Positions 2,704 through 21,906 of a stretch of DNA of 21,906 nt are shown here, in pieces. A program made the position numbers and the translations under genes. Positions within the stretch are counted from its first letter, which is position 1; the number at the start of each line of letters is the position of its first letter. The stretch comes from Parvularia atlantis (lineage: Eukaryota > Opisthokonta > Rotosphaerida), in the NCBI GenBank assembly GCA_943704415.1, contig CALSCO010001146.1, forward strand, positions 1-21,906. The letters run 5' to 3'. The notes under the pieces are model-generated. The model searched no databases, was not told the DNA's origin, and saw only the letters and a list, made by a program, of their open reading frames with translations.

Positions 2704-4673
2704 CTACTGTAACAGCCGCGCCAAACTCTCCACGAGCACGTCGGCCAGGTCCGCGTCGGCTCGCACGTGCACGAGCTGGTCGCCCACCTGCGTCCACACA
2801 ACGCCGTCCTGCACGCGCAGGCGCAGATGCGCCGCCTGCTTGCGCTCGCGGCTCGTCGCGCTCAGCACTACGTGGTGCAGCGTTGGTACGGTCGACGCCA
2901 CGACCGTGAGTGCCATCGGTCGCAGGTCGGCCAGCTCGGCACTGCGCACGACGCTCTGAAGGCGCACACGACGTGTCAGCGGGTCACGGCCAGCAAACGG
3001 GGTGCGCACCTGCGCCATGGCCGTCAGCCGCCGCAGCGCCTCGTGCTGGCGCAGGAACGTTGTCGACTCGGACAGCAGCTCGGCAGGCGTCGTCGCGAGC
3101 GCGAGGGTGTCGGGCGCGAACGGGTCAACGGACGTCCGCGTGCGGAACGTCGCCAGCAGCTTGCGCCGCATGCGGTTGGCGCAGCTCAGGCGGAGCCATT
3201 CGGTCGGCGACAGCCGCGTCGACGTCTCCATGGCCTCGCCTGCCGCCTGTGCGTCCCGGCGTTACGATCGCGCCCATCACGCGCGGCACGGCGCGGCACG
3301 CCGCACCGTCTCCGCGAGCGTGAACGTCAGTGTCGACGGGAACGTCTCCGGCGCGAGCATGACAGCGCTGTCGGTCAGGCTCCGCACGGTGAAGTCGCGT
3401 CGCGAGCGGGCCTCGCGCACGACCTGCGCAGCCGCGTAAGCGCAGCGCCCACCCGACAGCGCCGTTTCGCTCGCCTCCGCAAACAGATCCAGCTCAAAGA
3501 CGTTGAGCTGGGCGCGAAGCAGCTCGGCGTGCATGCGCAGGCACTCTGTCGCCCCGCGTCAGGTGCGCACACGACCACTACAGCTGCGTGCAAAGCGTGC
3601 CGGCGTTGGCGCGCAGCGCCTCGGTCACGTCGCGAAGCGCGGGCGGCAATGCCACGGCCACGGGCGCCTCGGTCCCGGTGCGCAGATCGATCTGCAGGTT
3701 GAGCGAGACGCGGCCGTGCCCGGGCGCGACGAGCCGCGTGCCGACGCGGTCTTGGCGGGCGTCGTCGCCGTGCGACACAACAAGCTCGGCCTCGGTCGGA
3801 TCGGCGAGCTGCGAGCCGCCTACGCGCGCGCATCTGCGGCGTCAGCAGTGCTGTGCAGCCACCACGCACCCGGCCCGCACCGCGGCGGAAGCCGTAGTCG
3901 ACATAGAGCCCGGCACCGGCCTGCTGCGCGCGGCTGCAGAGCAGCCATCGCTTGCGCACGGCGAGTGCCTGCAGCTCGACCTCGTGCTCGCTTGAGACCT
4001 GCGTGGCGAGGCGCGTCGCGGCGTCGAGCAGCGCCGTCGACGCCGTCTGCAGCCGCTGGTGATCATTCGGCGTCAACCGAGGATGCGGACGCGCGGGCTG
4101 ATGTGTGCGCACCCGGCGCTGCGTCGCGTGCTTGAGCTGTGCCTCGCGCAGCAGCGTCGCCGCGGTCGGCTCGGGCGCGTCCACGGTCGGCACGACCGTC
4201 AGCAACCCGGCGTCGTCGCTCAGCGCGTGGTTGAGCACGTCCAGCATGACCTGGACCTCCTGGCACGCCGTCCTGCGTCGTGTGCGGGTGAGTGCATGCC
4301 GACGGCCCGCCGCGTCACGCACTCGAGGTGCTGCACCATCTCGCGCACGGGCCACGGCTCCTGCGCGGCCGTCCCGCCCGTCACCGCGCTCGCCGCGGCC
4401 GCCCCGGCCGCCGCCGCGCCGGCCGGCTGCTGCGCCGCGCGGGCCGCGAGGACACGCTCGACCTGCTGCAGCTTGCGCAGCAGCTTGCTCTCGGCCGACG
4501 GCTCGCTGCGTGCGGCCGCGGCGTCAGCCCCCTCCGCCCCCCTGCGCACGGCGCGCCACCGGCCCGTCGGCCACGCACGGCACGAGCTCGCGCGCGCCCG
4601 TCGGCAGCACCGCCAGCACGGCCGGCCCGCTCGGCGCCTCGACCGCGAGCTCCATTGCGCGAATGTGCAGCAT
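2704..4673 (-). CDS. MED17: Mediator complex subunit 17 (Srb4-like)
   Basis: Head-module scaffold of Mediator, linking activators to RNA polymerase II in the nucleus (family knowledge). Minus-strand exons: 4579-4673, 4323-4505, 4113-4272, 3870-4055, 3601-3808, 3307-3545, 2704-3246; 537 residues (human 651). Recognition rests on several collinear blocks. MELAVEAPSGPAVLAVL resembles the human RISIESA start. MVQHLE...VMLDVLNHALSDDAGLL follows. LQTASTALLDAATRLATQV matches human [20 protein letters not shown], and ELQALAVRKRWLLC and YVDYGFRRGAG lie just after it. GHGRVSLNLQID and LNVFELDLFAEA come next. The C-terminal domain ends VHVRADADLADVLVESLARLL. Overall identity is low, so this is a motif-order call. 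Intron 4056-4112 (57 nt) is in frame without stops and could be exonic. Intron 3546-3600 needs a GC donor. An Ala/Gly-rich linker lies in exon 2. It shares a 77-bp spacer with the SCP2 gene. Confidence 0.75.
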
Positions 4674-4684
4674 GGGCGCGAGTG

Positions 4685-4694
4685 CACGTGACGT
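4685..4694. promoter_or_regulatory. E-box overlapping a CRE-like half site
   Basis: CACGTG (4685-4690) overlaps TGACGT (4689-4694). Such sites bind bHLH or bZIP factors in many eukaryotes. The location, within 60 bp of both start codons in a 77-bp divergent promoter, makes a regulatory role plausible, but a short motif in GC-rich DNA can occur by chance. Confidence 0.4.
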
Positions 4695-4705
4695 GCGTGC
4701 GCATG

Positions 4706-4718
4706 GAACATTCCAGAA
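4706..4718. promoter_or_regulatory. Heat-shock element (GAA-nn-TTC-nn-GAA)
   Basis: GAACATTCCAGAA gives three perfectly phased alternating units (4706-4708, 4711-4713, 4716-4718), the minimal consensus for a heat-shock factor trimer. A fourth position, GTC at 4721-4723, matches two of three bases. The local sequence is much less GC-rich than its surroundings, which makes chance less likely. It could drive either or both flanking genes. Confidence 0.55.
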
Positions 4719-4750
4719 CCGTCCGTTCAAACTCACTCTCTCGCTCGACC

Positions 4751-5279
4751 ATGGTCCGTGCCGCGCCTTGCCGTCTCCGTCCCCCTCAGGCCGGCTGACG
4801 GCCCGCGCGCCCGCGCGCCCGCCGCACCTGCGCAGACTGTCGCCGTCGACGGCTTCATCTCGTCGCCGCTGTTTGTGCAGATCGCCGAGGGCATCGCCAA
4901 GATGTCGGACGCGGAGAAGAAGGACGTTGTGGCCAAGGCCAAGTCCATCTTCGTCATGTCGCTCAAGTCCAAGGACGGCAAGGAGCAGTCGTGGACGCTC
5001 GACCTCAAGAACGGCCCGGCCGTGCACGTCGGCGTGCCCAGCGGCGTCAAGCCCGACATCGTCATGATCCTCTCCGACCAGGACTTCACCGACCTGTCGA
5101 GCGGCAAGGCCAACGGCCAGGTGCGGCGCCCGCCCCCGGTGCACGCGTGCGACCCCTCCCACTCACGCGCGCGCACGCAGAAACTGTTCATGTCGGGCAA
5201 GCTCAAGGTCAAGGGCAACGTCATGCTCGCGACCAAGCTCGAGGGCGTGCTCAAGACGGCGCAGAAGGCCAAGCTGTGA
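4751..5279 (+). CDS. SCP2 sterol-carrier domain protein, peroxisomal (AKL tail)
   Basis: Single-domain lipid-binding protein of the SCP2 family, which carries fatty acyl-CoAs and sterols and usually works in peroxisomes. Exons are 4751-4753 (ATG only), 4836-5120 and 5181-5279, giving 128 residues, the normal size. The domain shows VDGFISSPLFVQIAEGI, then EQSWTLDLKNGPAVHVG, DIVMILSDQDFTDLSSGKAN and KLFMSGKLKVKGNVMLATKL, the classic SCP2 order. The protein ends in AKL, an accepted variant of the PTS1 peroxisomal import signal. The first coding exon appears to be the start codon alone: the conserved domain is preceded directly by an acceptor at 4833-4835, the branch-like GCTGAC is at 4796, and the only upstream ATG in place is 4751. 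The donor GTCCGT is weak, so the start is the least certain part. Confidence 0.9.
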
Positions 5280-5385
5280 GCGCGCCCCGTGCTCGCTCGT
5301 TCGCTCGTGTGCGCGGCGTGGCCGGCGACGGATCGGCAGCCCTCTGTGTCTGTGCGTGCGCGTGTGTGTCTCGTCTCCAGACCTG

Positions 5386-8300
5386 TCACACAGTGCGCTT
5401 CGTCGCCGCGCGAGCGTACACGTTCCCGCGCGCGCCATGGCCGTCAAACACCGCGGGCTCGCCCGCGACGGGCGTGTTGAGCGGCGGGCCGGGCGGGAGC
5501 GGGATGGCCGTGTCGCCGAGCACGCGCGACATCGTCTCGGCCTGCGTCGCCGGTCACCGCGGGGAGGGGGGGGGCTCACACAGCCCAAGCCGGCGCTGCA
5601 CGCACCTCGTACACGCGCCCGTCCACGATCACGTACCGCACGTGCTCCGAGTTGTAGATGTCGTCGAGCGGGCTGCGGTCGGGCGGGTATACGAGCACGT
5701 CGCCCGCCGCGCCCACGCGCAGCACGCCCACGCCCTCCAGGCCGAGCCCCTCGGCCGCGTTGGCCGTCGCGGCGCGCAATGCCTCGACCGCCGTCGTGTT
5801 GCCCTGCACGAGCATCCACAGCTCTGCGCGCGTGCGCGTCACGCCGGCCGAGAGCGCGCAGATGGCCGGCGCGCGCACCCCAGTGGAACGCGAGGCCGTC
5901 GCGCTGGCCGTGCGCGCCCAGCAGAACCTTGACGCCGCGCTGCAGCAGCTCGCGGAGGGTCGCGGACGTGCGGAAGTGGTGGTAGTCGCGGTCGTCTGCC
6001 TTAACGCGCCGCAGCGACGCGCCCTCGAGCTCGCGCAGCGGAACGAACCGCCGCAGCCGGTCATTCTCCCACACGTTCGTAGTCTGGTACCAGTAGCGCT
6101 CGCCGCCGATGCCGCCTGGCCAAGTACGTGAGCACGCTTCGCCCGCGACCGCGTACACGCCTTGCGCGTACCAAAGTTGACGACCATCGTCGGGCAGTAC
6201 GCCGTGTTGCTGCGCACGCACGTGCACGCACGGTCAGCACCCGCGATCGCAGGCAAGCGGGCACACCTCGCCGCAAACACCTCCTGCACGTCGCGGTAGA
6301 GCGGCGCGACGGGGATGCTGTGCTCGATCGTCGTGTGACCGTCAATCATCTGCTGCAGATTCCACCCTGTGCGCGCGCCCCGGCACCGTCAGCGCCCGCG
6401 TGCACACTCGCCGCACAGCCGCACAGAGCGCCATGCCGCCCTCGGGCACGATCGAAAAGTTGAGCTCACGCGCGGCCTCGAGCAGCATCTGCCGCGCGGA
6501 CCTATCGGCCGTGCTCAGCACGTCGTGTGGCCTCTGTGGCGCCGGGGCGCACCGGCAGGGCTGGTTGTAGCTCTTGGCAGACCATGCGCCGTACGCCGCG
6601 AGCCGCCGCAAGTTGCTGCGCGCCTCCTCCAGGTCCGTGATCTCGCAGCGTGCCGAGCCGTCCGCGCCGTATAGGATCGTGCCGGTCGTGTGTAGGCGCG
6701 GGCCGATCTTCTTGCCTGCGGGCGCGTCGGTCAGGCCTCGCTGCCGCAGTCGCGGACCCCGCACGCACCCGCGCGCACGAGCTCGATGTCAGAGAAGCCC
6801 GTGAGCGTGTCGAGCGACGGGTTGTGCATCGTCGTCACGCCAAACGCGAGTGCCGTGAGGAACTCGAAGCTCTGCTGGACGTTGTAGCGATACGTGCCGC
6901 TCCAGTGCGCGTGCGCGTCAATCATGCCGGGCATGACGAGCCCGCCGGCCGCGTCGATCGTCGTCGTCGGGTTCTCAGGCAGCGTGATCGTGTCGCACGC
7001 GCCCACCGCTGAGATGGCGCCGCCCCTGCAGCCACCCACCGAGCGCGTCAGCTGGCGGGGTCGAAGAGCGCGTAGACACGAGACGCACGTAATGACGACG
7101 CAGCCGTTGGGCACGGGCGTGAGCGGCCCGTCCATCGTCAGCAGGAGGCCATTCGTGATCACGGTCACGTTGGACGCGGGCGGCGTGCCCGTCGGCGCGG
7201 CGAAGCCGAGGCTCACCGTCTGCAGCTTTGGCGCGACGCACGCCAGGCCAAACTTGGTGCCGTCGTCCGCGGCGCACGCCGCAACTGCCTCGGCCACGTC
7301 CGGCAGGATAAACATCTTCGAGCCAAGAATCCAGTGCAGCTCGCCCGAGTCGGACGACCACGCGAGGAAAGCGGCGCCTGCGCCCAGACGCACGCACGTT
7401 AAGCCAGGCGTATGCGAGAGCGCTTGCGCGCACCGTCGACGCTGCCGCGGATCGTGCGCAGGCTCGCGATCGTGTTCTCGCGCAGCTTGGGCACGGCCGA
7501 GAGCGACACGGGGTCGCTGGCGTCGCTCGTGCTGCCGAGCTCGACCACGTACACCTGGTGGAACTCGATAAAGGCGACGAGCCGTCCGTCCGGGCTCGGC
7601 ACAACGCTCGTCGTGTACGCGCCCGACGCGACCGCAGTCGATGTGCCCACCGCGCCCGTCTCGGTGAGAGCGATGCGCGTCGCGCCCGAGCCCGCGTCGA
7701 CGTACACGGCCGTCCCATCGGCGCTAAAGTGGCCCGCTCCGGTCGATGTCGACACGCGCTGCGGCGCGCCCGCCACGCCCGTCACTAGTCCGTTGGTGCG
7801 CGTCAGGCCCACGACGTAAAGCCCTGCGCCGAGCGACGCGCGCGGCCCGCTTAGGCCGTCCGCGCCGAGGCGCGTGTACAACAGGCGGTCGCCGGCCGGC
7901 GAGAAGCGTGGGTTGATGTAGCGGCCGAGCTCTGTCGCGGACGTGACACGCACTGTGGCCACGCCGGCGTCCTGCGTGCCGTCGGCAGCGAGCGTCACAA
8001 TCTCGACCGCGCCCATCGCGACGTCGTTCCAGGTCGCGTGGACCAGCTGCGGCGCCCACTGAGCAAGCCCGCACATCAGAGCCAGAGAAAGCGCACCACA
8101 CCTGACGGCCGTCCGGCGAGAGCGCAGGGCTGAACTCAAACACGTCCGAGCGCTGCGTGACGCGCCTGGTCGCGTCGGTCGACGGCTGGTGCACTGTGCG
8201 CCCACTCAGCCTCGGCACGGCCCATGTACGCGCGCGCAGACACACCGTACGTCTGGCCGAGCGCGCTGAAGAAGACAGAATCGCCGGTGCGGGCCGCGCT

Positions 8301-10105
8301 CTGCGCCACCTTGACCTCGAACGTGGCGCCGTACGCCGCAGAGACACTCGCGCGCACCGTCCGCGCGAGGCGCAGGTCCACGGGCACCTGCACTGGGATG
8401 GTCGACACTTCGCCTGTGTCGACGTCGATGCGCAGCAGGCGGCCGCCGGACCAGATCACGATAAAGTCGTCGGCGCTCGAGAAGGCAAAGTGCGGGTACA
8501 CGCCGTGCGGCGCCGACGTCTCCTGCAGCACGACATCACGTGAGCGGCAGCACAGCGGGTCGCCTGCGTCACCTGCTGATCGGTCGACAGCGCGCCGTAG
8601 AGTACGCGCTCGTCGCCCGTGGCGATATTGCGCAACACAAGCGCGCTCGTGAAGAGCGTGCGGCGGACTGCGCGGGCCGCCGCTGTCAGCGAGCAAGCGG
8701 GCAGCACAGGCAGCGCGACGCGCACCAAACGCGAGCGTGCTGCCGTCGTGCGAGACGACCGGACGCGCCGCACCGCCGACGCCGCCCGTAACGTACTCGG
8801 TGCGGTTCGTGGCCATGCTGACGCGGTAGATGCTGTAGATGCCTGGTGCCGCCACGTTGTCGCGCGCAGACGGTCACGCGCACGACCACGGCGACCGCGC
8901 GGTGGCGCACCCGCGTGCGGGTCCTTGCTGTACTGCCACGAGCTCGGGTTGTCGGCCGTGTTGACGCTGCACGCGCCGCAAACGGTGAAGGGGCGTACTA
9001 CACACCGCACTGCGTAGCGCACGCACCTGTAGTACACGTACGCGTTTGCGCTGTCGTAGTAGGGCTCCTCGGGGCCGATCTGCGCGCTCGACGACGCGCG
9101 TGCCACCAGGCGCCGCCCGACCGTGTCCGGCACGTCACCCACCTGGAACACCCAGATCTCGCCCGCGGGGATCGAGCGCGTGGTCGTGTGCCACTGCGCC
9201 AAGCACCGCGCGTCAGCCTCAGTGCGCACCGCCGCAGCAGCAGCAGCCGCATCTTGCCTTCACGGCAACGATGTTGCTCGCGTCGGCCGACCACTGCGCG
9301 CCGTTGACGAAGCGGTATGGCTCAGCGGTGACCGCGCGGACGGTGCGGCTCGCAAGGTCCATGCGCCAGACGTTGTCGCAGCCGCTCTGGTCGCTGCGCG
9401 TGCGCGTACGCATGCGCGTGCGCGGTTCAGGGCCGTGTGCAGCTGCGCGGTGGCAAGGGAGGCGCGCCTGCGGAAGAGAATCTGCGAGCCGTCGGGTGAG
9501 AAGCGCGGCTGCGTGTCGAACGGGACACCGCCGCGGAGCAGCGTGGCGGTGCCTGTGCGCGCGCGGTGTGAGCGTGAGCCGCGCGGCCCGTCGTGCGCGT
9601 GCCGCCGTCCAGCTCGACGGTGTAGAGGTCGCCCAGGACGTCAAACACGAGCGTGTCGCCGTGGAGGTCGACGTTGGCCCACGTGAACTCGTCCGTGGTG
9701 AACGTGAGCGGGCGCGTGTGGTTGGCCGCGATGTCCCAGGGCTGCGTCTGCAGGCGCAGCGGCAGGAGGTCGACAGCCTCGGTCTGCGTCTGCACGCGTG
9801 CATCAGTGAGCACGTGCACGCAACGGCACGGCCGGGCAGCGAGCGCGCGCACGTCGTCGGACGAGGACGACTGGTCGCGCACGACGACGGTGAACGCGAT
9901 CGCGGTGCCGACAAACGCGACCACGAACAGCATCAGCAGTGCGAGCAACAGGTAGCTGGGGCCGGGTGCATGAGCCACGCGCGCTACACATCGGCCACAC
10001 GCACAGGAACGCGCGCTCGCTCTTCTGCTCGGGCTCGCGCGGCGCCGGCGCATCGGTCGTCGCTGCAGCATCTGACGCGAGAAGTGGTGCCGAAGCGTCT
10101 GCCAT
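5386..10105 (-). CDS. Membrane-anchored TolB-like propeller / amidohydrolase fusion
   Basis: Predicted metal-dependent hydrolase with an N-terminal WD40-like (PD40/TolB) propeller, 1187 residues; substrate unknown. Residues 1-32 are probably cytosolic, about 33-59 form one membrane span (LLLALLMLFVVAFVG) of type II anchor, and about 70-730 hold propeller repeats such as PRFSPDGSQILFRSDQSG, ARPVVSHDGSTLAF and SPALSPDGRQLVHATWND. The amidohydrolase domain (about 740-1150) has HxH at 811/813 (GMIDAHAHW), a likely catalytic Lys906 (AKSYNQ), H949 and H954 (DGHTTIEH), and GAHGQRDGLAFHWE at about 1050-1063. The fusion is common in bacteria as a secreted protein. Exons: 10005-10105, 9853-9955, 9603-9789, 9468-9552, 9258-9393, 9027-9193, 8911-8966, 8726-8842, 8573-8667, 8246-8522, 8102-8193, 7434-8046, 7089-7377, 6769-7025, 6553-6715, 6425-6501, 6267-6366, 6172-6209, 5879-6115, 5606-5823, 5386-5541. 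Three introns (9194-9257, 9394-9467, 9553-9602) use GC donors. Intron 9790-9852 is in frame and could be retained. Confidence 0.92.
5561..5574. repeat. G-rich homopolymer in a propeller/amidohydrolase intron
   Basis: Four Gs, one A, then nine Gs on the + strand, inside intron 5542-5605; the transcript therefore carries a C-rich tract between donor and branch site. Length may be affected by sequencing error. Confidence 0.8.
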
Positions 10106-10208
10106 GCCAGTGGGATGTAGGTGCTTCGGACCATGCGCACCCGCGGATGGCCACGCGCGCACTCACACGCACTCACACGCGCCACGCCACGCCGCAGAGC
10201 GCGCGCCG
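10106..10208. promoter_or_regulatory. 103-bp divergent promoter of amidohydrolase and SEC7/BIG genes
   Basis: Short gap between two opposite start codons. It contains a small direct repeat, CGCACTCACA followed at once by CGCACTCACA (about 10158-10177), then CGCCACGCCACGCC. No TATA box is seen. Both genes presumably initiate within this stretch or inside each other's first exon. Confidence 0.55.
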
Positions 10209-13200
10209 ATGCTGCTCAAAATCCTTCTCGAGAAGGTGCTGGCGGAGCTGCCCGCGCCGGGCGCACCCGGGGCCGCCGCCGGCAAGAGCGCCGAGCTGCG
10301 TGACGCGCTGCAGGCCGCGCTCGAGAAGCTCAAGACGGGCAAGGCGCGTGCGGCGGCGCGCACGGGCGGCGGACGCGCGGCGGGCGCGCTGACCACGGCG
10401 GCCGCACGGCAGGACGGCGTGCTCGCGGACAGCTTTTGGGGCGTGATCAAGGCCGTGCTCGAGACGTCGGGCTCGGCGCGCGTGATCGAGACGACGCTCG
10501 ACTGCGTGACCAAGCTGATCTCCTTCAAGCAGCTGCGGGGCGACACGGTCGACCCCAAGACCAACACGCTGCTCGTGAACGATGTGCGCGGCCCGTCCGT
10601 GCGCCGCGGTTGTGCTCACGCGCGCGCTGCGCTTCGCAGATCGTCGACGTCGTCAGCGGCTGCTTCGTCTCGTCCAAGACCGACGTCGGCGTGCAGCTGC
10701 AGGTCGTCAAGGTGCTGCTCACCGCCGTCGTCTCGCCCACGTTCGAGGTGCACGACGCCGCGCTGCTCAAGGCCGTGCAGACGTGCTTCAACATCTTCCT
10801 CTTCTCAAAGTCGTCCGCCAACCAGGCGCGCGCCGACTGGCCCCGCCCGTCGACGCGCGGCTGACCACTCCGATGCTGCCGCAGGTCGCCGCCAAGGCCA
10901 CGCTGACGCAGATCGCGAACCACGTGTTCCAGCGCCTCGAGGCGCACGCGCCCACGGTCGCGCCCGCCCCCACGTCCGCTGCGTCTGCCACGACCGAGGC
11001 CGAGGCGAGCGGCGCGCATGCGAACAGCACCAACGGCGACGCCAAGGCGCACGCGAGCGACACCACGCCCCCAGCTGCCGTCACGCCCACGCACGACAGC
11101 CAGCCGGGCAAGTGCGTGATGCGCGCTCTTGTGGTGCGCAGCGCACGCTCACGCCGCGCATGCGCGCCAGGTACGGCTTTTGCATCGTCTGCCACAAGAA
11201 GGCCGACCACTTTTGCATGCAGACCAAGGACCCTGTCTGCTCGAAGGAGTGCAAGGCGGTGCGTCATCGCCCGCACGAGCCGGCGCGCACGCTCACGCGG
11301 CGCATGCGACAGCTCAACCTGGAGCGCATCGAGGCGGAGGAGCGCCGGCGCCGCGAAGACGGGGATGTGACGGCGAACGGTGCGTGTGCGCTGCCGTGCG
11401 TCGCACGTGATGCTGACGGCGCACACGCGCGGCGCGCACAGATCCCTTGCCGACAGCCGCGGCGGCGGCGCCCGTGCCGGCAGAGAGCCCGTACGACGCG
11501 TCGTCGCCTGAGTACACCAAGGTCCTGCGCAAGGACGTGTTTCTGCTGTTCCGGCGGCTTTGGTACGCGCGCCATTTGCGGCCGGTCGCGCCCCCCCCCC
11601 CCCCCGGGGGGCTGCGCTTATCGCTTCGTGCGCGGCAGCGCCCTGAGCAAGTCGCCCAACGACTCACCGCAGGTGCTCGAGCAGAATTCGAACGAGGTGC
11701 GCGTGCACGTTTTGGGCGACGGAGCACGACAGCTCACGCGTTCCGCGCAACAGCTGCGCGGCCGCCTGCTCGCACTTGAGCTGCTGCACTCGGTGCTGAC
11801 CAACCCCGGCCCGATCTTCCGCAACAACGACGTCTTTGTGACGCTCGTGCGCAAGGATCTGTGCCTGCCGCTGTCGAAGAACAGCGTGTCGCCGAACCGT
11901 GCGTCCGTGCATACACGCATGCACGCGGCCCTTGCAAACGCGCCGCCGCGCAGCCAACCTGTTCCAGCTGTCGCTCTCGCTGTTCATGCTGATCATGGTG
12001 CACTTCAAGGCGCCGCTCAAGAGCGAGATCCAGGTCCTGTTCAAAGACATCTTTCTGCGCATCCTTGAGACGAGCGCGTCGACCAACTTCCAGAAGTCGA
12101 TCGTGATGCAGGTCTGCCCGCGCACACACACACACACCACACCACCGCACGTGACGATCCGCTCGCTTAGGCGCTGCTCAAGATTTGCTCAAGCCCGCAG
12201 ACGCTCGTGGACCTGTATCTCAACTACGACTGCGACGTCAACGGCGACGACATCTTCGAAGCCACCGTGCGCCAGATCTGCCAAATCGCCGGCGGGCTGC
12301 ACCGGCAGTCGGAGGGGTCGGCGGACGCGGCGGCGCAGGCCGAGGTGGCGCCACAGGCGCGCGTGCGGCACCGCGTGCTGACGGGCCATGCGCAGGTCCG
12401 CAAGATCCGCGTGCGCAGCCTGCAGGCGCTGCTGGCCATCCTTCGCTCGCTGCAGCAGTGGGGCAACCAGCGTGACGAGGCGGCCGTGGCGGCTGACCTG
12501 ACCAGCCCGGCCGCACACCCGGCGCCAAGCGAGGACACGCCTGCTGCGTGCGTTGCACCACCCGTGCGCACAGGGCGTGCACCCACTCACACGCCGTGTC
12601 CGCATGCAGGGACGGCGACGGGACGGCCAAGCCGACTGGTGCGTCGCTGCGCAACACGCTGTGTGTGTGTGTGTGTGTGTGTCACTCACACGTGCTGGTG
12701 CGCGCAGTGCCTCAGGACGCGCCCGAGACGTTCCAGGACATGAAAAACCGCAAGACGGTGTGTGCTCGTCGCACCTGCCTCGCAACGGCTGACGCGTACG
12801 CACGCGCGCCTCGCAGCTGCTCAAAGACGGCATAGTCCAGTTCAACACAGCCAAGCCGAAGAAGGCCGTCAAGTTTCTGCAGCAGGTGCGCTCGCCCCAC
12901 ATGCGACGCGCTCGCGGGCTGACAGCGGGTGGGCAGAACGGCTTTGTGTCGGAGGAGCCGGCCGACGTGGCGCGCTTCCTGCTGACGACGCCGGGCCTGA
13001 GCAAGGCGGCGATCGGCGAGCTGCTGGGCGACGAGGACCCGGTGGGTGCGGAGCCGCGGCGGTGTGCGGTGCTGACGGGGTCGGAGCGCCGCAGCAAATC
13101 ATCAAGATCATGCACGCGTTCATCGACCAGTTTGACTTCAAGAACATGAGCTTCACGCTCGCGTTGCGGCACTTTCTGCAGGTGCGTGCCTGCGCACGGC

Positions 13201-16200
13201 CTCTCACGATTGGAAGCGTGCTGATGCGGTGCGCGCCCAGGCCTTCCGTTTGCCGGGTGAGGCGCAGAAGATCGACCGATTCATGGAGAAGTTTGCCGAC
13301 CGCTACTGCGAGAACAATCCGGACGTGTTTGCCAACGCCGACACGGCCTACACCCTCGCCTTCTCGGTGATCATGCTCAACACGGACCTGCACAGGTGCA
13401 CACCGTGCGCGTAGTGGCGGCGTGCAGCTCTGACAGCGCCTGCGCGCGCGCGCGCGACGGCCTGCAGCAACCAGGTCAAGAACAAGATGACCAAGCAGCA
13501 GTTCTTCAAGAACAACCGCGGCATCAACAACGGCGGCAACCTCGAGGTGCGCCGGCGCTGCGGCGGCGGGCGTCGGCGTGCTCACGCGCTGCCGCACACC
13601 TGCCAGGATGCCTATCTTGACCAGATCTACGACGACATCGCCAAGGACGAGATTGTGATGGAGGAGGAGCAGTCGGCCGAGCTGGCCAAGGCCGCGGCGG
13701 CGGGCGAGAACCTGAGCGCGCGGCAGCTGGTCGAGCTCCGGCGCATGCAGGCCGGGCAGCTGACGCGCAAGCTCCAGCTGCTGCTGCAGGTGCGCCCGCG
13801 CGCTCTGTTGCGACGCGGGACGCTGACATGCAGGTGCGCGCGTGCCGCAGCAACAAACATCGGCCGTCGTGTACCACTCGGGCTCGCACGCCGAGCACGT
13901 CGGCCCCATGTTCCTAATCGCGTGGACGCCGGTCCTCGCCGCGGTCTCGGTCATGTTTGAGGAGAGCTCGGACGGCGACACGGACGTGATTGGGCACTGC
14001 CTCGAGTGCTTTAGGTGGACCGTGCGGCGTGCGCGCTGTGCGCGGTCGGCTGACATGTGCGCCGCAGCATCGCCATCGTGCTCGCGTGCCAGTACGGCGT
14101 CAAGCCGGCGCGCGAGTCGTTCGTGCTGGCCGTGACCAAGTTTGCCGTGCCGCAGCGCATCACCGAGATGAAGGTGCGCCGGGCCGTGCAGCTGCGTGCG
14201 CAGGCGATGACGCGGTCGCGCACAGTCCAAGAACATCGCCGCCATGCACAGCCTGCTTGCGATCGCCTTCCAGTGCCGCAACGGCCTGAACGACTCGTGG
14301 GTGGACGTGCTGCGGTGCATCTCGCTGCTGGTGCGCGCGCTGTGCCGTCGGGTGTCTTCTTGGCGCGACTGACCCGTCGTATGCGCTGCGGCCGACGTAG
14401 GAGAGCCTGCAGCTGATCAACAAGCACGGCGGGCTTGAGGAGCAGCTCAAGGCGTTTGTGCGGGCGCGCGCCCCCGGGCCGAACGACGCCAAGGGGCCGC
14501 AAGCGTGCGTGACGCGCGCGCGACGTGGGCGTGCACCCGTGCTCATGCGCGCGCGCGCGACGTCTCGCAGGGCGGCGCAGCACGACCAGATGGTCGCGCA
14601 GATGATGCAGGAGGCGCAGGACCCGCACGTCAAGCAGTGCGCCAGCTGGATTGGCCGCCGCTGGAGCGCTTACACTGCCGCGCGTGCAGGCACCTGCTGG
14701 CGATCATGCGTGAATTCCAGTCGCAGGCGCTCACCGTGGCGATCGATCGCATCTTCTCGTCGTCGGGTGGGCTGACGGGGCAGGTGCAGCTGTTGGCGCG
14801 CCCGTCGCGCGTTGCTCAAGCGGCGGGGCGGGGTGGCGCGCAGTCGATCGTTCACTTTTTCACGTCGCTGTGCACGGTCTCGCGCGAGGAGGTGTCTGCG
14901 CAGCCATGCCGCCTGTTTTCGCTGCAGAAGGTTCGCGCGTGTGCGCTCGGTCTAGGCCTCGTGCTGACGCGGCGGGACAGGTGATCGAGCTGGCCTACTA
15001 CAACCTTGACCGTATCCGCCTCGAGTGGACGCAGATCTGGGCCGTGATCCAGCCGTACTTCAACGACGTCGGCGTGCACCACGACCGGAGCGTGGCGACC
15101 ATGGCGGTCGACTCGCTTCGCCAGCTGATCATGAAGTTCCTCGAACGCGACGAGCTCGGGCGGTTCAGCACGCAGGGCGAGTTCCTCAAGCCAGTGGAGC
15201 ACATCATGCGCGAGGGCAAGTCGCCGGCGATCAAGGAGTGCGTGCGTGCCTGGCTGCGCGCACTGCGGCTCACCCGGGCGCGCGCGCCGCAGGTACGTGC
15301 TCAAGTCGCTGGAGCAGATGATCCGCGCCCGCGCCGGGCGCCTCAAGTCCGGCTGGCGCTCGATCTTTGTGATCTACGGGCGGTGCGTGTGCGCGCGGCC
15401 GGTGCAACGCAGCTGACACGCGGTTGTCAGCGCGGCCAAGGAGCCCAGCAAGGAGATGGTGACGATGGCGTTCGGGATGATGTCGACCATCTTCACGGAC
15501 CAGTTTGAGCACGCCAAGGCGTGGCTGAACGACTACCTGCTGGCGCTGTCCGAGTTTGCGCTCAACAACGTGAGCGAGGAGATCGCGATGGCGGCCATCC
15601 ACTTGCTGCAGATGGTCGCGGCGCAGGTGGGCGTGCCGCCTGGCGGCCTGTGTCGTCGTAGCCTGACGCGCTCGCGCAGCTACCGACGTCGGGGACAGCG
15701 GAGGCCGACGTGTCGGTGGAGCAGACGGGGGATGACGGGGCAGGCCAGCAAGGTGCGCTGCCGCGACCCGTTTGAGTAGCTCCTGACGAACGGGGGGGGG
15801 GGGGGGGGGGGGGGGGGTTGTGCAGACGCCACGTTGCTCAACAGCGCGTCACTGCCGCTGTCGCCGTCGTCGGTGCGTGCGGCGCTGTGGCTCGGGTGGG
15901 CGCGCGCGTGCCTGAGCGGGCGTGAGTCGGCCGCAGGCGATGCTGGCAAACGCGGCAAGCGTGCTCGGGCAGATGCACCTGGAGGACTTCATGTTCATGT
16001 GGCACCCGATCCTCAACAACCTGTACAGGATAGTCACAAGCAGCTCGTCGCTGCCCGTCCGCAAGAAAGGTGCGCCTGTGCTGCCGCGCGAGACGCCCTG
16101 CGCTGACGCTTGCTGCGACGGCGACGCAGGGCTGGAGACCCTCTCGCTCATCCTGCGCAGCAGCGGCAAGTCGTACAACGCGGATCAGTGGCGCTCAGTC

Positions 16201-17566
16201 ACGCGCACGATCCTGCACCCGATCTTTGAGGACATGAACGACATCGACCTGCGGCGGCAAGAGGTGCGTGGGGCACGGCGCCCGCCCGTTGATGCCGTGC
16301 TGAGCGCGCGCGCAGGTGCCGTCGACGATCTGGATCCAGGCCGTCCGCCTCGAGACAGACCTGTTTTCGACCTTCTTCCCGGCCATGTCGAGCAAGAGCG
16401 TGCTCGAGTCGTACCTGGAGCAGCTGCTGCTGTTCATCACGCAGCGCGTCGAGAACCTGGCCAAGACGGGCGTGATCTGCCTCGCGCAGATGATCACGCG
16501 CACGCTGAGGGTGCTGCTGCGGCGGCGCGCTTGCTGCCTCGGGCTCACGCGCGACGCGCGACGCGCAGCTGTACACGCCGGCCGACTGGAAGATCATGAC
16601 CGACACGCTCGAGCTCGCCTTTGCCCGCACGACGCCGAGCGAGGTGCTCAACGCAGTCAACGCGGCCGAGTTTCAGCGCTCGCTGGCCAAGGCACGCGCG
16701 GGGCCCAGTCACCCGGCCGCGCTGACTCACGTGGGCGACGCAGGTCACGGTGCACCTCGAGCTGATCAAGGCCGTGAAGGAGATCGTGCTCAGCCCCACC
16801 GCCGGCACCGTCGCGGCCATCCCCAAGGAGAGCTGGACGAGTTGGCTGCGGGCGCGTGGCGGTGCAGGCCCGGCGCTGCGATGTCTCACGGTCCGGGCGC
16901 GCAGAGCCTGCACAACTCGTACGTGTTTGCGCGGCGCTTCAACGGCGACTACGACTTGCGGCTGTCGCTGATGAACGCGGGCTACGTCGCGCGCATCCCG
17001 AACCTGAATCAGCAGGAGGTGCGCGCTGTGCTGCGTTAGGTTGCGTTGCCGCCCGCGTTTGGCTGATGCGCGCGCGCGCCCACGCTGCAGACGACCGCGA
17101 TCGCCGCGTACATCATCCTGTCACTGCGGCTGTACCAGCACTACGGCGACGGGGGCGCGTTTGAGGAGGCCGTGGTCTTTGCCGAGTGCAAGGAGTTCCT
17201 GGTGCGTGTTGCTGCGCCGCCGGTGCGGCTTGTGCTGACGGGTTTGCAGAGCACGTTTGTGGCACTCCTGGCTGAGCCGCAGAAGAACGAGCGCGAGCTC
17301 GCGCCGCGCGCGCACATCGTCGTGACGATCTACGAGGAGCTCGTGGCGCTGAACTGGGAGGACGCGGCGTCCAACAGGGTGCGGCGTGTGTTGCGCGGCG
17401 GCCTGCGCCGGTTGACGGGATGGGCGGGCGGCAGACGCGCGGCGTGCGGGCACACATCGGCGAGTTTGCGGGGCTCGCGACGCAGCTGCTGCTGATCGAC
17501 AACCTGGCCGTGCGCAAGGCGCTGCAGGCGTTCTTTGTGCGAGTGAACGCGATCTATGTGATGTAA
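10209..17566 (+). CDS. SEC7: SEC7/BIG-type Arf guanine-nucleotide exchange factor
   Basis: Activates Arf GTPases at the trans-Golgi for vesicle coat assembly (family knowledge). The model has 39 exons and 1708 residues, near the usual 1700-2000. DCB region ~1-230; a Cys cluster C267, C270, C278, C286, C290 ([15 protein letters not shown]); HUS box NYDCD at 493-497; Sec7 domain ~628-810 with [16 protein letters not shown], the FRLPGE loop with catalytic Glu721, and [24 protein letters not shown] regions to the C-terminus. Exons: 10209-10583, 10640-10825, 10885-11111, 11171-11258, 11313-11379, 11442-11562, 11639-11696, 11754-11898, 11954-12111, 12171-12547, 12610-12638, 12708-12757, 12817-12885, 12937-13041, 13095-13181, 13241-13395, 13468-13546, 13607-13789, 13851-14014, 14068-14173, 14226-14330, 14401-14504, 14571-14636, 14690-14783, 14844-14930, 14981-15237, 15293-15382, 15431-15626, 15680-15752, 15826-15872, 15937-16069, 16130-16263, 16316-16510, 16569-16691, 16744-16851, 16905-17018, 17091-17201, 17250-17378, 17435-17566. 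Introns 10826-10884, 16692-16743 and 16852-16904 are GC-AG. Exons 29-30, around the poly-G intron, are poorly conserved and least certain. Confidence 0.95.
11591..11611. repeat. C15-G6 homopolymer junction in a SEC7 intron
   Basis: Fifteen Cs followed at once by six Gs, inside intron 11563-11638 (76 nt, donor GTACGC). The C/G block can form a hairpin in the pre-mRNA. Because the tract is long, its exact length in the assembly is doubtful. Confidence 0.85.
12123..12137. repeat. Short CA microsatellite in a SEC7 intron
   Basis: About 7.5 CA units within intron 12112-12170, which has donor GTCTGC and a TAG acceptor. Confidence 0.8.
12661..12682. repeat. GT microsatellite (11 units) in a SEC7 intron
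   Basis: Eleven GT units within intron 12639-12707, immediately before its CACTCACAC branch-like region. Every unit is a potential cryptic GT donor, but none is followed by CG as real donors here usually are. Confidence 0.85.
15792..15817. repeat. Poly-G run of 26 in a SEC7 intron
   Basis: Twenty-six consecutive Gs within intron 15753-15825, between a CTGAC branch-like site (15783-15787) and the TTGTGCAG acceptor. This is an unusual place for a G tract. It could be a genuine G-quadruplex-forming tract or a base-calling artefact; flanking exons 15680-15752 and 15826-15872 still join in frame. Confidence 0.85.
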
Positions 17567-17862
17567 GTCAATCACGCACCGCCTCGGACTCCGGCGGCGA
17601 ACTTTTTGATTGCCAATGGCAGATGTGAGTACGCCGAGCATGCCGTCACAAACGTACATGCGAGAGCGACTCACATGCGGGATAAGTTGGAATACTACTT
17701 GTCGGAGCTCGGTGCGCAACCTTTGACCCTGAGCCGAGCTCAGCAAGGGCGAGATGCCAGAGTTGCGGCCAAAAGAAGCTACGTACGTACAGTTCTCTCG
17801 ACATGAGTGGCAAGGGAAAAAATAAAAAATGTCATCCCGTCTCGCATCGCACATTTGCCATC
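17567..17862. promoter_or_regulatory. AT-richer spacer between SEC7 and CSN8 (terminator/promoter)
   Basis: 296 bp between the SEC7 stop and the most likely CSN8 start, visibly less GC-rich than anything else in the window. It must hold the SEC7 3' UTR and the CSN8 promoter. An AATAAA (17821-17826) resembles a polyadenylation signal but lies close to the CSN8 start. There is a tandem ACGTACGTAC (17781-17790). The CSN8 frame stays open upstream to a Met at 17803 (MSGKGKNKKCHP), which could be an N-terminal extension. Other short frames (e.g. from 17616, with a good GTGAGT donor at 17625) can be read but match no family I know, so I call no gene here. Confidence 0.5.
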
Positions 17863-18573
17863 ATGGACGCAGAGAGGCAGACGGGACAGCCGCTCGAGCA
17901 CGCGCTGGCGAAGGATGTGCCGGCGCGGGTGATGCTGGCGCACCTGGCCGAGGGCGACCTGTACGTGCGCCCGCTGGGCCACACCTCCCGAGCGCGTGGC
18001 TAACCGCGGAACGCAGCGCCAGCGCCCGGTTCGTCTGGAAGCGCACGCGCGACCCGTCGCCCGAGGCCGCGGCGGCGTGGCGCGTGACGCAGGCGCTCTG
18101 GAACCGGCAGTACGGTGAGGCGCACGCCGCCTTGTGCGCGGGCGCGTGGTCGGCGGCGCTCGTGCCACACGTCGCGGCGCTCGAGACGGCGCTGCGGCAG
18201 CGCACGGCGCGGCTGCTGGCACGGGCGTACGCGGCCATCAGCGTGCACGACGCGGCCGCGCATCTCGGCCTGGACGAGGCGCAGTGCGCGCAGTGTGCGT
18301 GCGCGGATGTGCCGAGCTGTGCGTGCGTGTGCTCAGACGAGCGCCGTGGGACAGACTGCACCGCGACGCTCGGGTGGACGCTCGATGGCGCAGCGACGCT
18401 GCGGCCGCGGCCGATCGGTGCGCCGCTAGCTGTCGGCCGGGCACGGGCGCTGACCAGTTGCTGTGGCCGTGCGCGTGCGTGCGTGCGCAGCGGAGCCGAA
18501 AGACCGCAAGCCGCAGCTGCAGCAGCTCGACCACCTCGCGACCTACGCGCTGCACCTGGACCAGCGCTTGTGA
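17863..18573 (+). CDS. CSN8: COP9 signalosome subunit 8 (PCI domain)
   Basis: Smallest PCI subunit of the COP9 signalosome, which removes NEDD8 from cullins and so tunes cullin-RING ubiquitin ligases, mainly in the nucleus (family knowledge). Exons are 17863-17960, 18017-18294, 18355-18417 and 18491-18573, giving 173 residues (human 209). The order follows human CSN8: GDLASARFVWKR corresponds to NNARYLWKR, then a Trp-rich ALWNRQYGEAH, ALRQRTARLLARAYAAI matching DATRRRAFALVSQAYTSI, VHDAAAHLGLDE matching ADDFAAFVGLPV, LGWTLDG, and a C-terminal helix LDHLATYALHLD matching LTDYVAFLEN. The spacing from LGLDE to LGW equals the human one once intron 18295-18354 is removed, supporting that junction. 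The start could be 17803 instead. The eIF3k and Rpn12 relatives share the PCI fold, but block order and the C-terminus favour CSN8. Confidence 0.85.
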
Positions 18574-18627
18574 TGATGACGGCGGATTGCTTCCCATGCG
18601 ACACGTGCACAAAACGGGCCGGCGACG

Positions 18628-21600
18628 TCACGTCGACTGCCTCGGCAGGCTGGCCATGTAGGACGACTCTTGCGTGACCTGCGGCGACGTGAGACGGACC
18701 GCGCTGCGGCACAGCATGCCGGTGGGCGCACGTTGACAAAGACCTCCTCGAGAGACGTCTGCGAGATGCTGAAGTCCGCGATCAGGTCCGTGCGCGCCTC
18801 GATCTGCTCAAAGAACGGCACAAGCCGGGCGGTCACCGACGGCGGCAGCGCGTAGTTCATGTACACCTAGCCCGCACTGAGTCAGCGCGCGTTCCAGGCG
18901 CAGGCAGCGGCAGGCCGCACCACGTCGTCGACGGCGTTCTCGCGCGCGAGGTGTGCCTCGGCTGCGCATGGGCCGTGAGCGACGCGAGGGCGACGCGGCA
19001 CAGGCAGGCGCATTGGACGCACGCAGCTGCTGCTTGACGAGCGACTTGACCTCCTCGGCCGCGGCGCGGCTGACGACGAGATTCATCTTGTACCCTGTCG
19101 TGCACGCGACGGGGCGGTCACGCGGCTGGCGCTCACGGCAAGCAGGCAGCGCACACCAGCAAAGCGGTTCTTGAGGTGGATCGACGAGCCGACGCAGCGC
19201 AGCTGGCCGAGCGCCATGACTGCAATCTTGTCGCCGAGCACGTCGGCCTCCTCCATCGACTGTGGGCGTGCGCGAGCGCGTGAGCCAGCGCGAGCGCACG
19301 CAGCAATGCGCGTGCGCACATGCGTCGTCATGACGATCACGCGGCCCTTCTTCAGCCGCAGGATCAGGTTCCAGATGTCGCGGCGGATGTACGGGTCCTT
19401 GCGCACGTCCGGCTGAGCGTGGCGCACACTTTGCGCCCCCTTCGCGTGCGCGCACCATGCCCGTCGTCGGCTCGTCCAAGTAGACGATCCTGGGGTCGCC
19501 CACGAAGCTGAGCGCGACCGACAGCCGCCGCTTCATGCCACCACTGAACGTGCCGACGGCGTTGTGCTGGACCTGCGCCGCACGCGCTCAGCCCACGGCA
19601 TGTCGTTGCTTGAGCCACGCACGTCCAGCAGTTGCACGTCGTCCAGGCGTTCGCGGATAATCGCGTCGATCTTGCTGTGCGGGATGCACCGCAGATCGCA
19701 GAAGATCTCCATGTGCTCGCGCGCGGTCAGGTCGTTCCAGAGGATGTCGTGCTGCACGGAGCGCCCCATGGTCAGGCCGCTCAAGGGTGTTGTGTGCGCG
19801 CACGTGCCTGCGGGCACACGCCCAGGATGTCGCGGATCTTGTCCATGTCGCGCTTCACGCTCAGGCCGTAGATGTGCGAGTCGCCCTCGGACGTGCTAAG
19901 CATGCCCGTGAGCATGTTGATCGCGGTTGTCTTGCCTGGACGTGTGTGTGCACGAGCGCGTGCGTGAGCAGGCCGGGGTGCACGTGCGTGTGTGTGCACG
20001 CACCTGCGCCGTTGTGGCCCAGCAAGCTAAGGACTTGCGACTCCTGGAGTGTGTCGCGCAGTGCGTCAGCCTTCGCAGGCGCGCGCGTGTGCACGCACCT
20101 CGGCGACGAGGCACAGGCGGTTGACCGCGGTGTTGACCGTGGCCGGCCGGAAGCGCAGCAGCGAGCCGAGCGTGAAGGTGTAGAACCTGCGCGGGCGCGG
20201 GCGCCGTCAGCGGCGTCGGGTCGCGCTCCCGGCACGCACTTGCGCGTCAGGTTCTGCACAACGAGCGGGTACCGCGCCGTGCCGCTCAGGGCCGCTAAAC
20301 GCTCGCCGCGCACGTCCTGCAGACGCAGCCGTCAGCGCCATTCACAGCCGATCCCCTCGCGCACCGGGTCCTCGTCCGCATGTCCGTTGGCGCCGTCGGA
20401 CTGCGCGTCGTGCGGCTCAGACGCGTTCATCGTCGGCGAGTCCGGCACAAGCTCGGTGTAGCCTGCGCAGCCCGCGTCAGACACGAACGCACAGAGGCCG
20501 CGCGCGCGCCATACCCGCGTCTGCGGCTGCGGCCGTGCTGCCCGTGCCGAGGTCGATGCCCCAATACGATGGCTGCAGGAAGAAGTAGAGCGGGCGCGGC
20601 TCGCCGTTGCTGCTCGGCACGACGTTGTCGAGGAACCTGCGCACCGTTCGAGTGAGCGGGCCACGGGCGGTGCGTCCGGGCACAGTCGCGGCGAACCAGG
20701 TCAGGAACATGAAGATGAGGAAGTTGAACAGCAGCAGCAGCAGGCTCTGGTACGTCGACGGGATGGCCTTGCACACGGTCTCGCCGTTGACGGTCTTGTA
20801 GATGCACTGCGTCTTGTACAGCGAGTCCCACGTGTAGCCTGCGAACCGCGGCGTGAGGCGGCACGGCGGGCCGCAGCGCGGACGCCACGCACGTGTCGCG
20901 TTGAGCTGGTTGCCCTGCGAGTCCTGCGTGGAGTAGGCCGTGTTGATGTCGGCCATGGCCTGTGTGCGCGCGGGACCAGGTAAGTACACGCACAGGCGTG
21001 CACGGCGCGTGCTTTGGCGAGGTTGAACGGCGGTACGAACGAGAAGCTGATCGGCACGGCGCGCGGCACCAGGTCGTCGTCGTAGATTGCCTGCGCGCCC
21101 CGTCAGCCTCGAGGCGTGCTTGCTTGCGCGCGGCCGGTCCGCACCTGGATTGTGTACGTGTTGCCGACGATGGCCACGAAGAGCAGGCCGAGCACGAAGA
21201 TGCCCATGCCCATGTTGAGCGACGACTTGGCCTTCTCGATAAAGACGCTCACAAACGTCGCGAGCGAGGCGATCGAGAGCGAGTAGACGAGGAAGAGCAC
21301 GAATGTGACGGGAAAGTCGGTGTTGGTGAAGAACTGGAAGCGCACCATCGTGCCTGCGTGGCCGCGCGTCAACTCGCGGCGCACGGGGCGCACGGGGCGC
21401 GCGGCGCGACGCACCGGCCGCGATGAGCACGAGCGTCGCGATGATGCAGATGATCGTCGCGGTGATGTACCACGACATCCAGTAGACCGAGTCCTTCAGG
21501 CCGATCATGCGCAGGCCGCGCCGCAGCGCCAGGTCCTTCTCCATGCAGATGTTGTACAGCAGGATCACAAACTGGAACATGATCCCGCAGTAGAAGAAGA

Positions 21601-21802: not shown

Positions 21803-21815
21803 CTGAGCAAGGTAC

Positions 21816-21817
<2 letters not shown>

Positions 21818-21906
<89 letters not shown>
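21818..21906. repeat. TG microsatellite reaching the window end (about 44 units)
   Basis: An uninterrupted TG run of 89 nt that continues to the last base. On the minus strand it lies just upstream of the ABCA exon acceptor at 21803-21805, so it is probably intronic. The window, or the contig it comes from, likely ends here because the repeat could not be assembled. Confidence 0.95.

Follow-up and report, generated by a model that had tools for sequence, protein, structure and literature searches.

GC-AG introns with compensated donor sites predicted at a high share in a GC-rich, probably opisthokont genome

Genes and GC-AG introns of the window

Introns that begin with GC instead of GT (GC-AG introns) are described here for a stretch of 21,906 nucleotides, called the window in what follows, and for further DNA of the eukaryotic assembly that holds it on contig C289 (16,251,876 bases, 616 contigs). 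The window has a GC content of 69%; G or C fills 92% of four-fold sites, and CpG is over-represented. Its gene models gave Pfam matches to an ABC transporter with ABC2 membrane domain, SCP2, PD40/TolB-amidohydrolase, GNAT acetyltransferase, glutaredoxin and CSN8/PSD8/EIF3K, and the Med17 match of a MED17-like gene was sub-threshold (19.3 bits vs a cut-off of 21). A long plus-strand gene for a BIG/Sec7-type ARF exchange factor matches the SEC7-domain protein of PDB entry 8ucq. In a quick single-gene tree, the nearest partner of the ABC protein is the environmental protein P0001 (support 93), followed by Fonticula (84), whose composition was flagged as deviating; from this tree, the host lineage is probably opisthokont, and a kinship to Fonticula is a guess.

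Genes were modelled with a semi-Markov gene finder that combines three-periodic coding, intron content, an acceptor matrix and length. Exons of the window served as its seed, and its training set held no introns but GT ones (787 in 204,275 bases). The sample comprised 20 stretches: the window, L002 and, from other contigs, 18 stretches of 10 kb; L006 (23.5% GC), L001, L003 and L014, which copies the window, were omitted. Two main runs were made, one with a donor matrix and one without it, in which all donor positions beyond the dinucleotide were ignored. A masking test, in which each called donor was masked in turn, gave its support in nats. Homologs were used to compare each GC variant with every nearby frame-keeping GT..AG pair and with intron retention, the alternatives (about 20 for the introns starting at 16692 and 20960) being taken regardless of donor quality. 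Printed alignments of eight introns with three homologs each were inspected for seamless junctions, that is, junctions inside the alignment with no gap within five residues.

An earlier note on this DNA had listed nine GC-AG introns, the last of them as ambiguous. All nine begin with GC and end in AG at the positions it had given:

3546..3600, minus strand: GC-AG intron of the MED17-like gene; donor GCACGC, 55 nt; joins the gene halves; masking 7.7 nats; placed by the reading frame, no homologs
9194..9257, minus strand: GC-AG intron of the TolB-amidohydrolase gene; GCAAGA, 64 nt; best in 35/40 homologs, median margin 8; seamless in 3/3
9394..9467, minus strand: GC-AG intron of the TolB-amidohydrolase gene; GCGCGC, 74 nt; best in 40/40, median margin 66; seamless
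9553..9602, minus strand: GC-AG intron of the TolB-amidohydrolase gene; GCACGC, 50 nt; best in 40/40, median margin 30; seamless
10826..10884, plus strand: GC-AG intron of the BIG gene; GCGCGC, 59 nt; best in 25/27, median margin 53; masking 12.2 nats; contiguous against PDB 8ucq
16692..16743, plus strand: GC-AG intron of the BIG gene; GCACGC, 52 nt; masking 8.0 nats; seamless in 3/3
16852..16904, plus strand: GC-AG intron of the BIG gene; GCGCGT, 53 nt; best in 27/27, median margin 11; masking 10.0 nats
19752..19807, minus strand: GC-AG intron of the ABCA-type transporter gene, at CPQ/HDILW; GCACGT, 56 nt; best in 40/40, median margin 35; masking only 1.5 nats
20960..21012, minus strand: GC-AG intron of the ABCA-type gene (the ambiguous ninth); GCACGC, 53 nt; masking 2.3 nats

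Once GC was permitted beside GT, the GT-trained gene finder called all nine. Modelling with GT only broke the MED17 gene into 2704-3534 and 3578-4655 and the BIG gene into 10209-10864 and 10873-17566, and each became one model when GC was allowed. The junction was seamless in 23 of the 24 printed alignments, the one miss being intron 10826 against P0241; for intron 20960, the closest homolog, P0001, shows the junction PPFNLAK/AMADIN without gap or substitution. Judged on these comparisons, homologs settle six of the window introns; for two others the scores give no decision, yet they fit their nearest relatives, and the MED17 intron is placed by its frame.

Six of the nine donors carry A at +3, a base found in 3-4% of sampled GT donors. 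The earlier description of these sites as local GTGCGT/GTACGT donors with T replaced by C is therefore off for most of them.

The earlier count of window introns was 95; the gene finder counts 101 (87 GT, 14 GC), or 88 GT and 10 GC without the matrix. The five GC calls beyond the nine are of mixed quality. At 12357-12395 and 14796-14843, the alternatives win in 27/27 homologs each, and these two calls are probably gene-finder errors; 10344-10412 won in 19/27 homologs by a small margin, and 10157-10197 is without any competing variant. The remaining one is:

3424-3474: extra GC call of the gene finder

Share of GC donors among introns

When one dinucleotide at a time was added to GT, GC gained 620 nats and 75 introns; the gains of the 14 controls lay between 44 and 276 nats and between 7 and 49 introns. 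With 16 dinucleotides competing under four penalties, GC received 65, 55, 48 and 41 introns and the runner-up 11, 5, 3 and 2. Re-estimation of the class frequencies gave 729 GT, 82 GC and 4 for the other 14 together with the matrix (n = 815), and 733 GT, 69 GC and 2 others without it (n = 804). Apart from GC, no non-GT donor rises above background; the GC excess, read directly from the sequence, goes beyond chance, and the pattern looks real. GC introns were present in 18/20 sampled stretches without the matrix and in 19/20 with it.

In the masking test, the GC share was 9.5% among introns with support above 0.5 nats, 9.1, 7.7, 6.7 and 5.4% at 1, 2, 3 and 5 nats, and 6.0% at 8 nats. An extra sample of 56,871 bases unused in training, on contigs partly picked for U6 and other spliceosome-related matches, was analysed with the frozen model. 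Under equal small priors and with the matrix, 14 of 187 introns were GC (runner-up 3); trained priors gave 25/188 with the matrix and 26/186 without. From the masking and extra-sample counts, the predicted GC share is stated as 5-10%. Published means are about 1% (animals 0.98, fungi 1.01, plants 1.49; PMC7072748), and the earlier claim of a share well above this value is borne out by prediction in the sampled DNA.

Intron features and donor context

In length, branch motif and acceptor, the GC introns are the same as GT introns. Neither donor nor branch marks played a part in choosing GC, and the acceptor matrix was used. Median length is 57-58 nt for GC and 56 nt for GT introns, and C at acceptor position -3 has a frequency of 0.88 and 0.94, respectively. 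The branch motif YTNAC, at 11-30 bases before the intron's 3' end, is present in 40/69 GC and 450/733 GT introns; among GT introns it is enriched as CTGAC (248 introns) and CTCAC (201), with 31 expected each.

The GT donors read GTGCG(C/T), with G at +3 in 92% and C at +4 in 88%. Four-fold sites between two G's are 84% C, so the C at +4 needs no special cause. In the matrix-free set, GC donors have C at +4 at 0.74 and G at +5 at 0.70. They differ from GT donors in the same run by A at +3 (31/69 vs 21/733, odds ratio 28), A at -2 (43/69 vs 250/733) and an AG exon end (39/69 vs 185/733); there was no significant difference at -1 G, -3, +4 or +6. GC donors are thus compensated, their other bases lying nearer the U1 consensus at +3 and -2, not at +5. 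The association of +2 with +3 in donors has an odds ratio of 31 (z 4.9), or 17 (z 3.6) with the matrix. CpG loss was considered as a cause of the A at +3 and ruled out, CpG being over-represented (observed/expected 1.27).

The share of GC depends on the rest of the donor. Without the matrix, it is 21/26 for AG/GNA (the slash marks the exon end), 10/26 for a non-AG end with +3 A, 16/180 for AG with +3 G and 15/506 for neither; in the extra sample, also without the matrix, the two extreme contexts gave 9/12 and 7/114. Intron bodies in matching flanks provide a neutral C/(C+T) of 0.91 for G_A and 0.66 for G_G. From AG/GNA to the weakest context, the log ratio of neutral to observed odds is 0.9, 2.8, 3.0 and 4.2. 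If mutation-selection balance is assumed, the constraint on +2 T would nearly vanish in the strongest context.

U1, U6 and other splicing factors

The earlier note had suggested inspecting the 5' end of the U1 small nuclear RNA. Of 149 candidates, 41 were scored, and a single U1 gene exceeded the cut-off (88.1 bits); its 5' end, AUACUUACCUG, is canonical. For this one gene, mutation of U1 is therefore rejected as the cause. The G7 string, which would pair with C at +2, has two genomic copies, neither with a U1 match or a U1-like locus.

The ACAGAGA box of U6 is canonical as well; with the base composition, this rules out reading the C at +4 as a sign of a changed U6. LUC7 is present. Loss of METTL16 was set aside on a PF05971 match of 181 bits in the assembly, which is no proof of METTL16 because PF05971 also matched E. 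coli. For the U12 RNA of the minor spliceosome, no match was found in the assembly, and likewise none in any control genome.

The only U6 gene found (L024:1501-1662; G000:C142:8820-8981) carries an insertion of 48-49 nt between GAAGATT and GCATGG, at what we take to be exactly the catalytic AGC triad. The insertion is about as long as local introns, yet it lacks an AG end whose use could restore the triad, and U6 is otherwise canonical. Its fold is no more stable than those of shuffled sequences, 21% of which were as stable.

Interpretation and alternatives

The T at +2 of a donor pairs with A7 of U1, and a C at this position loses that pair. The explanation we favour, and consider probable, is that the GC donors belong to ordinary U2-type introns in which +2 has drifted from T to C under GC bias where pairing with U1 is strong. 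A strong genome-wide pressure toward G and C would act on every A and T of a donor, and selection for T would normally hold it off at +2. Each donor would have to supply enough U1 pairing. With an AG exon end and +3 A in place, C at +2 would be tolerated and would drift to near the neutral composition, and it is for this reason that AG/GNA donors would be mostly GC; where +3 had already drifted to G, the T at +2 would have to stay. Donors would then be found mainly in two one-departure states, GTG and GCA. Splicing of these introns, GC bias as the driver and U1 pairing as the selective agent are what we infer from the patterns above.

More tentatively, these states may form a two-state system in which only one G+C departure from GTA is affordable, either at +3 (GTG) or at +2 (GCA). 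As a part of this possibility, and no firmer than it, the near-invariant +2 T could be almost neutral given AG/GNA, with an implied S of about 0.9 vs about 4.2 in the weakest context.

Several observations weigh against drift under strong U1 pairing or against the size of the effect. G at +5 is rarer in GC donors (48/69 vs 627/733, p 0.0015, without the matrix), so there is no compensation at this position; false calls are perhaps responsible. Intron bodies show a +2/+3 odds ratio of 5.2 of their own because TpA is rare, which reflects plain composition and not pairing, and the predicted difference in U1 duplex between GC and GT flanks is small in the matrix-free set (p 0.02). Phase 0 is commoner in GC introns with the matrix (58/82 vs 374/729), a bias that is unexplained. 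Stricter masking lowers the GC share to 5.4%, the extra sample under equal small priors without the matrix gave only 5/182 GC against 3 CG, and some GC calls of the gene finder are false, homologs having refuted two of the five extra ones in the window. The spread is uneven, with 10 GC among 39 introns in stretch L010 (G000:C7:1-10000), the highest share sampled. In the window, GC was best in only 6/27 homologs (1 tie) for intron 16692 and in 15/40 for intron 20960, with a better-scoring alternative frequent in both.

The drop under masking, together with the artefact-type calls at 12357 and 14796, is what would be expected if many GC calls came from frameshifts, assembly errors, retained in-frame sequence or missed nearby GT donors. 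Such artefacts would give GC no advantage over 14 other dinucleotides and would not favour the rare +3 A, and six window introns are best in 35/40 or 25/27 to 40/40 homologs; we regard this explanation as quite improbable. A changed machinery that accepts C at +2, through a variant U1, a U1 protein or an RNA modification that relaxes pairing, has in its favour the 15 of 506 donors that are GC with +3 G and without AG, and U1 proteins or RNA modification have been proposed for algae, where the abundance was left unexplained (PMC3033335). Since the sole U1 gene over the cut-off is canonical, the two G7 strings lie in contexts that are not U1-like, and GC donors need extra pairing, it is an unlikely alternative. 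Regulated GC donors, kept as weak sites for alternative splicing, have been reported for mammals and nematodes (PMC2490688) and proposed for some animals; a share of 5-10% over most sampled stretches and near-neutral C in strong contexts are better fitted by drift, and regulation is very improbable.

Of the two causes offered in the earlier note, GC-biased mutation is supported by the 92% GC at four-fold sites and by C in 21/26 AG/GNA donors, near the neutral 91%. Pairing relaxed by an altered U1 lacks such support: the one U1 gene over the cut-off is canonical, neither G7 string has a U1 match, and the extra U1 matches of GC donors at -2 and +3 are the opposite of relaxed pairing.

Relation to other GC-rich genomes

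Introns of this kind are already known; the novelty lies in the added member and in how large the context effect is. Iwata and Gotoh (2011, PMC3033335) reported GC-AG shares of 39.6% in Aureococcus anophagefferens, 22.2% in Micromonas pusilla and 7.7% in Chlorella sp., and called this abundance in GC-rich algae an enigma. High genomic GC and a high GC-AG share are common to these algae and the present genome, and the canonical U1 5' end matches their report for Aureococcus and two Micromonas (PMC3033335). The present host belongs to another, probably opisthokont lineage, its share is 5-10%, and its introns are predicted from sequence alone, whereas the algal ones were verified by transcripts (PMC3033335); the dependence on +3 and on the exon end is tabulated here. 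In Emiliania huxleyi, about 60% of donors are GC, as verified by RNA, and Feldmesser et al. (2014, PMC4028052) regarded GC content as the probable cause. A GC-rich genome and a retained AG acceptor are shared with the present case, but GC is the majority donor in E. huxleyi and GT still is here.

For mammals, Churbanov et al. (2008, PMC2490688) described GC donors whose other bases are closer to consensus and proposed that a strong context permits neutral fixation of GC. The drift mechanism suggested here is one that they had put forward in words (PMC2490688); the mammalian share is below 1%, and that found here is several times higher and comparable with a neutral yardstick. Context-dependent drift may supply what the account of algae by Iwata and Gotoh (PMC3033335) appears to have lacked. 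Among the titles that the literature searches brought up, none reports how the GC share varies with donor context in a GC-rich protist, although such work may exist.

A probable opisthokont relative thus joins the GC-rich eukaryotes rich in GC-AG introns, and a canonical U1 is no bar to the effect. For annotation, gene finders restricted to GT split genes here. The context table makes a published puzzle measurable by relating selection for +2 T to the remainder of the donor. If the two-state reading were borne out by RNA, it would offer an explanation of why the GC-AG share tracks genomic GC only loosely, since the share would depend on the number of donors that keep +3 A and AG.

Other observations

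The TolB-like propeller fused to an amidohydrolase is encoded by a eukaryotic gene at 5386-10105, and its named homologs are mostly bacterial among the 120 listed of 2027 found. Two places may mark limits of the assembly: 15793-15817, a G run within the BIG gene, and 21813-21906, where the contig ends in a long TG repeat. The omitted stretch L006 (G000:C3:1-10000) comes from a contig of 23.5% GC that is probably a mitochondrial genome, with seven transfer RNAs and open reading frames that resemble what we take to be nad4, nad1, rps12 and rps11.

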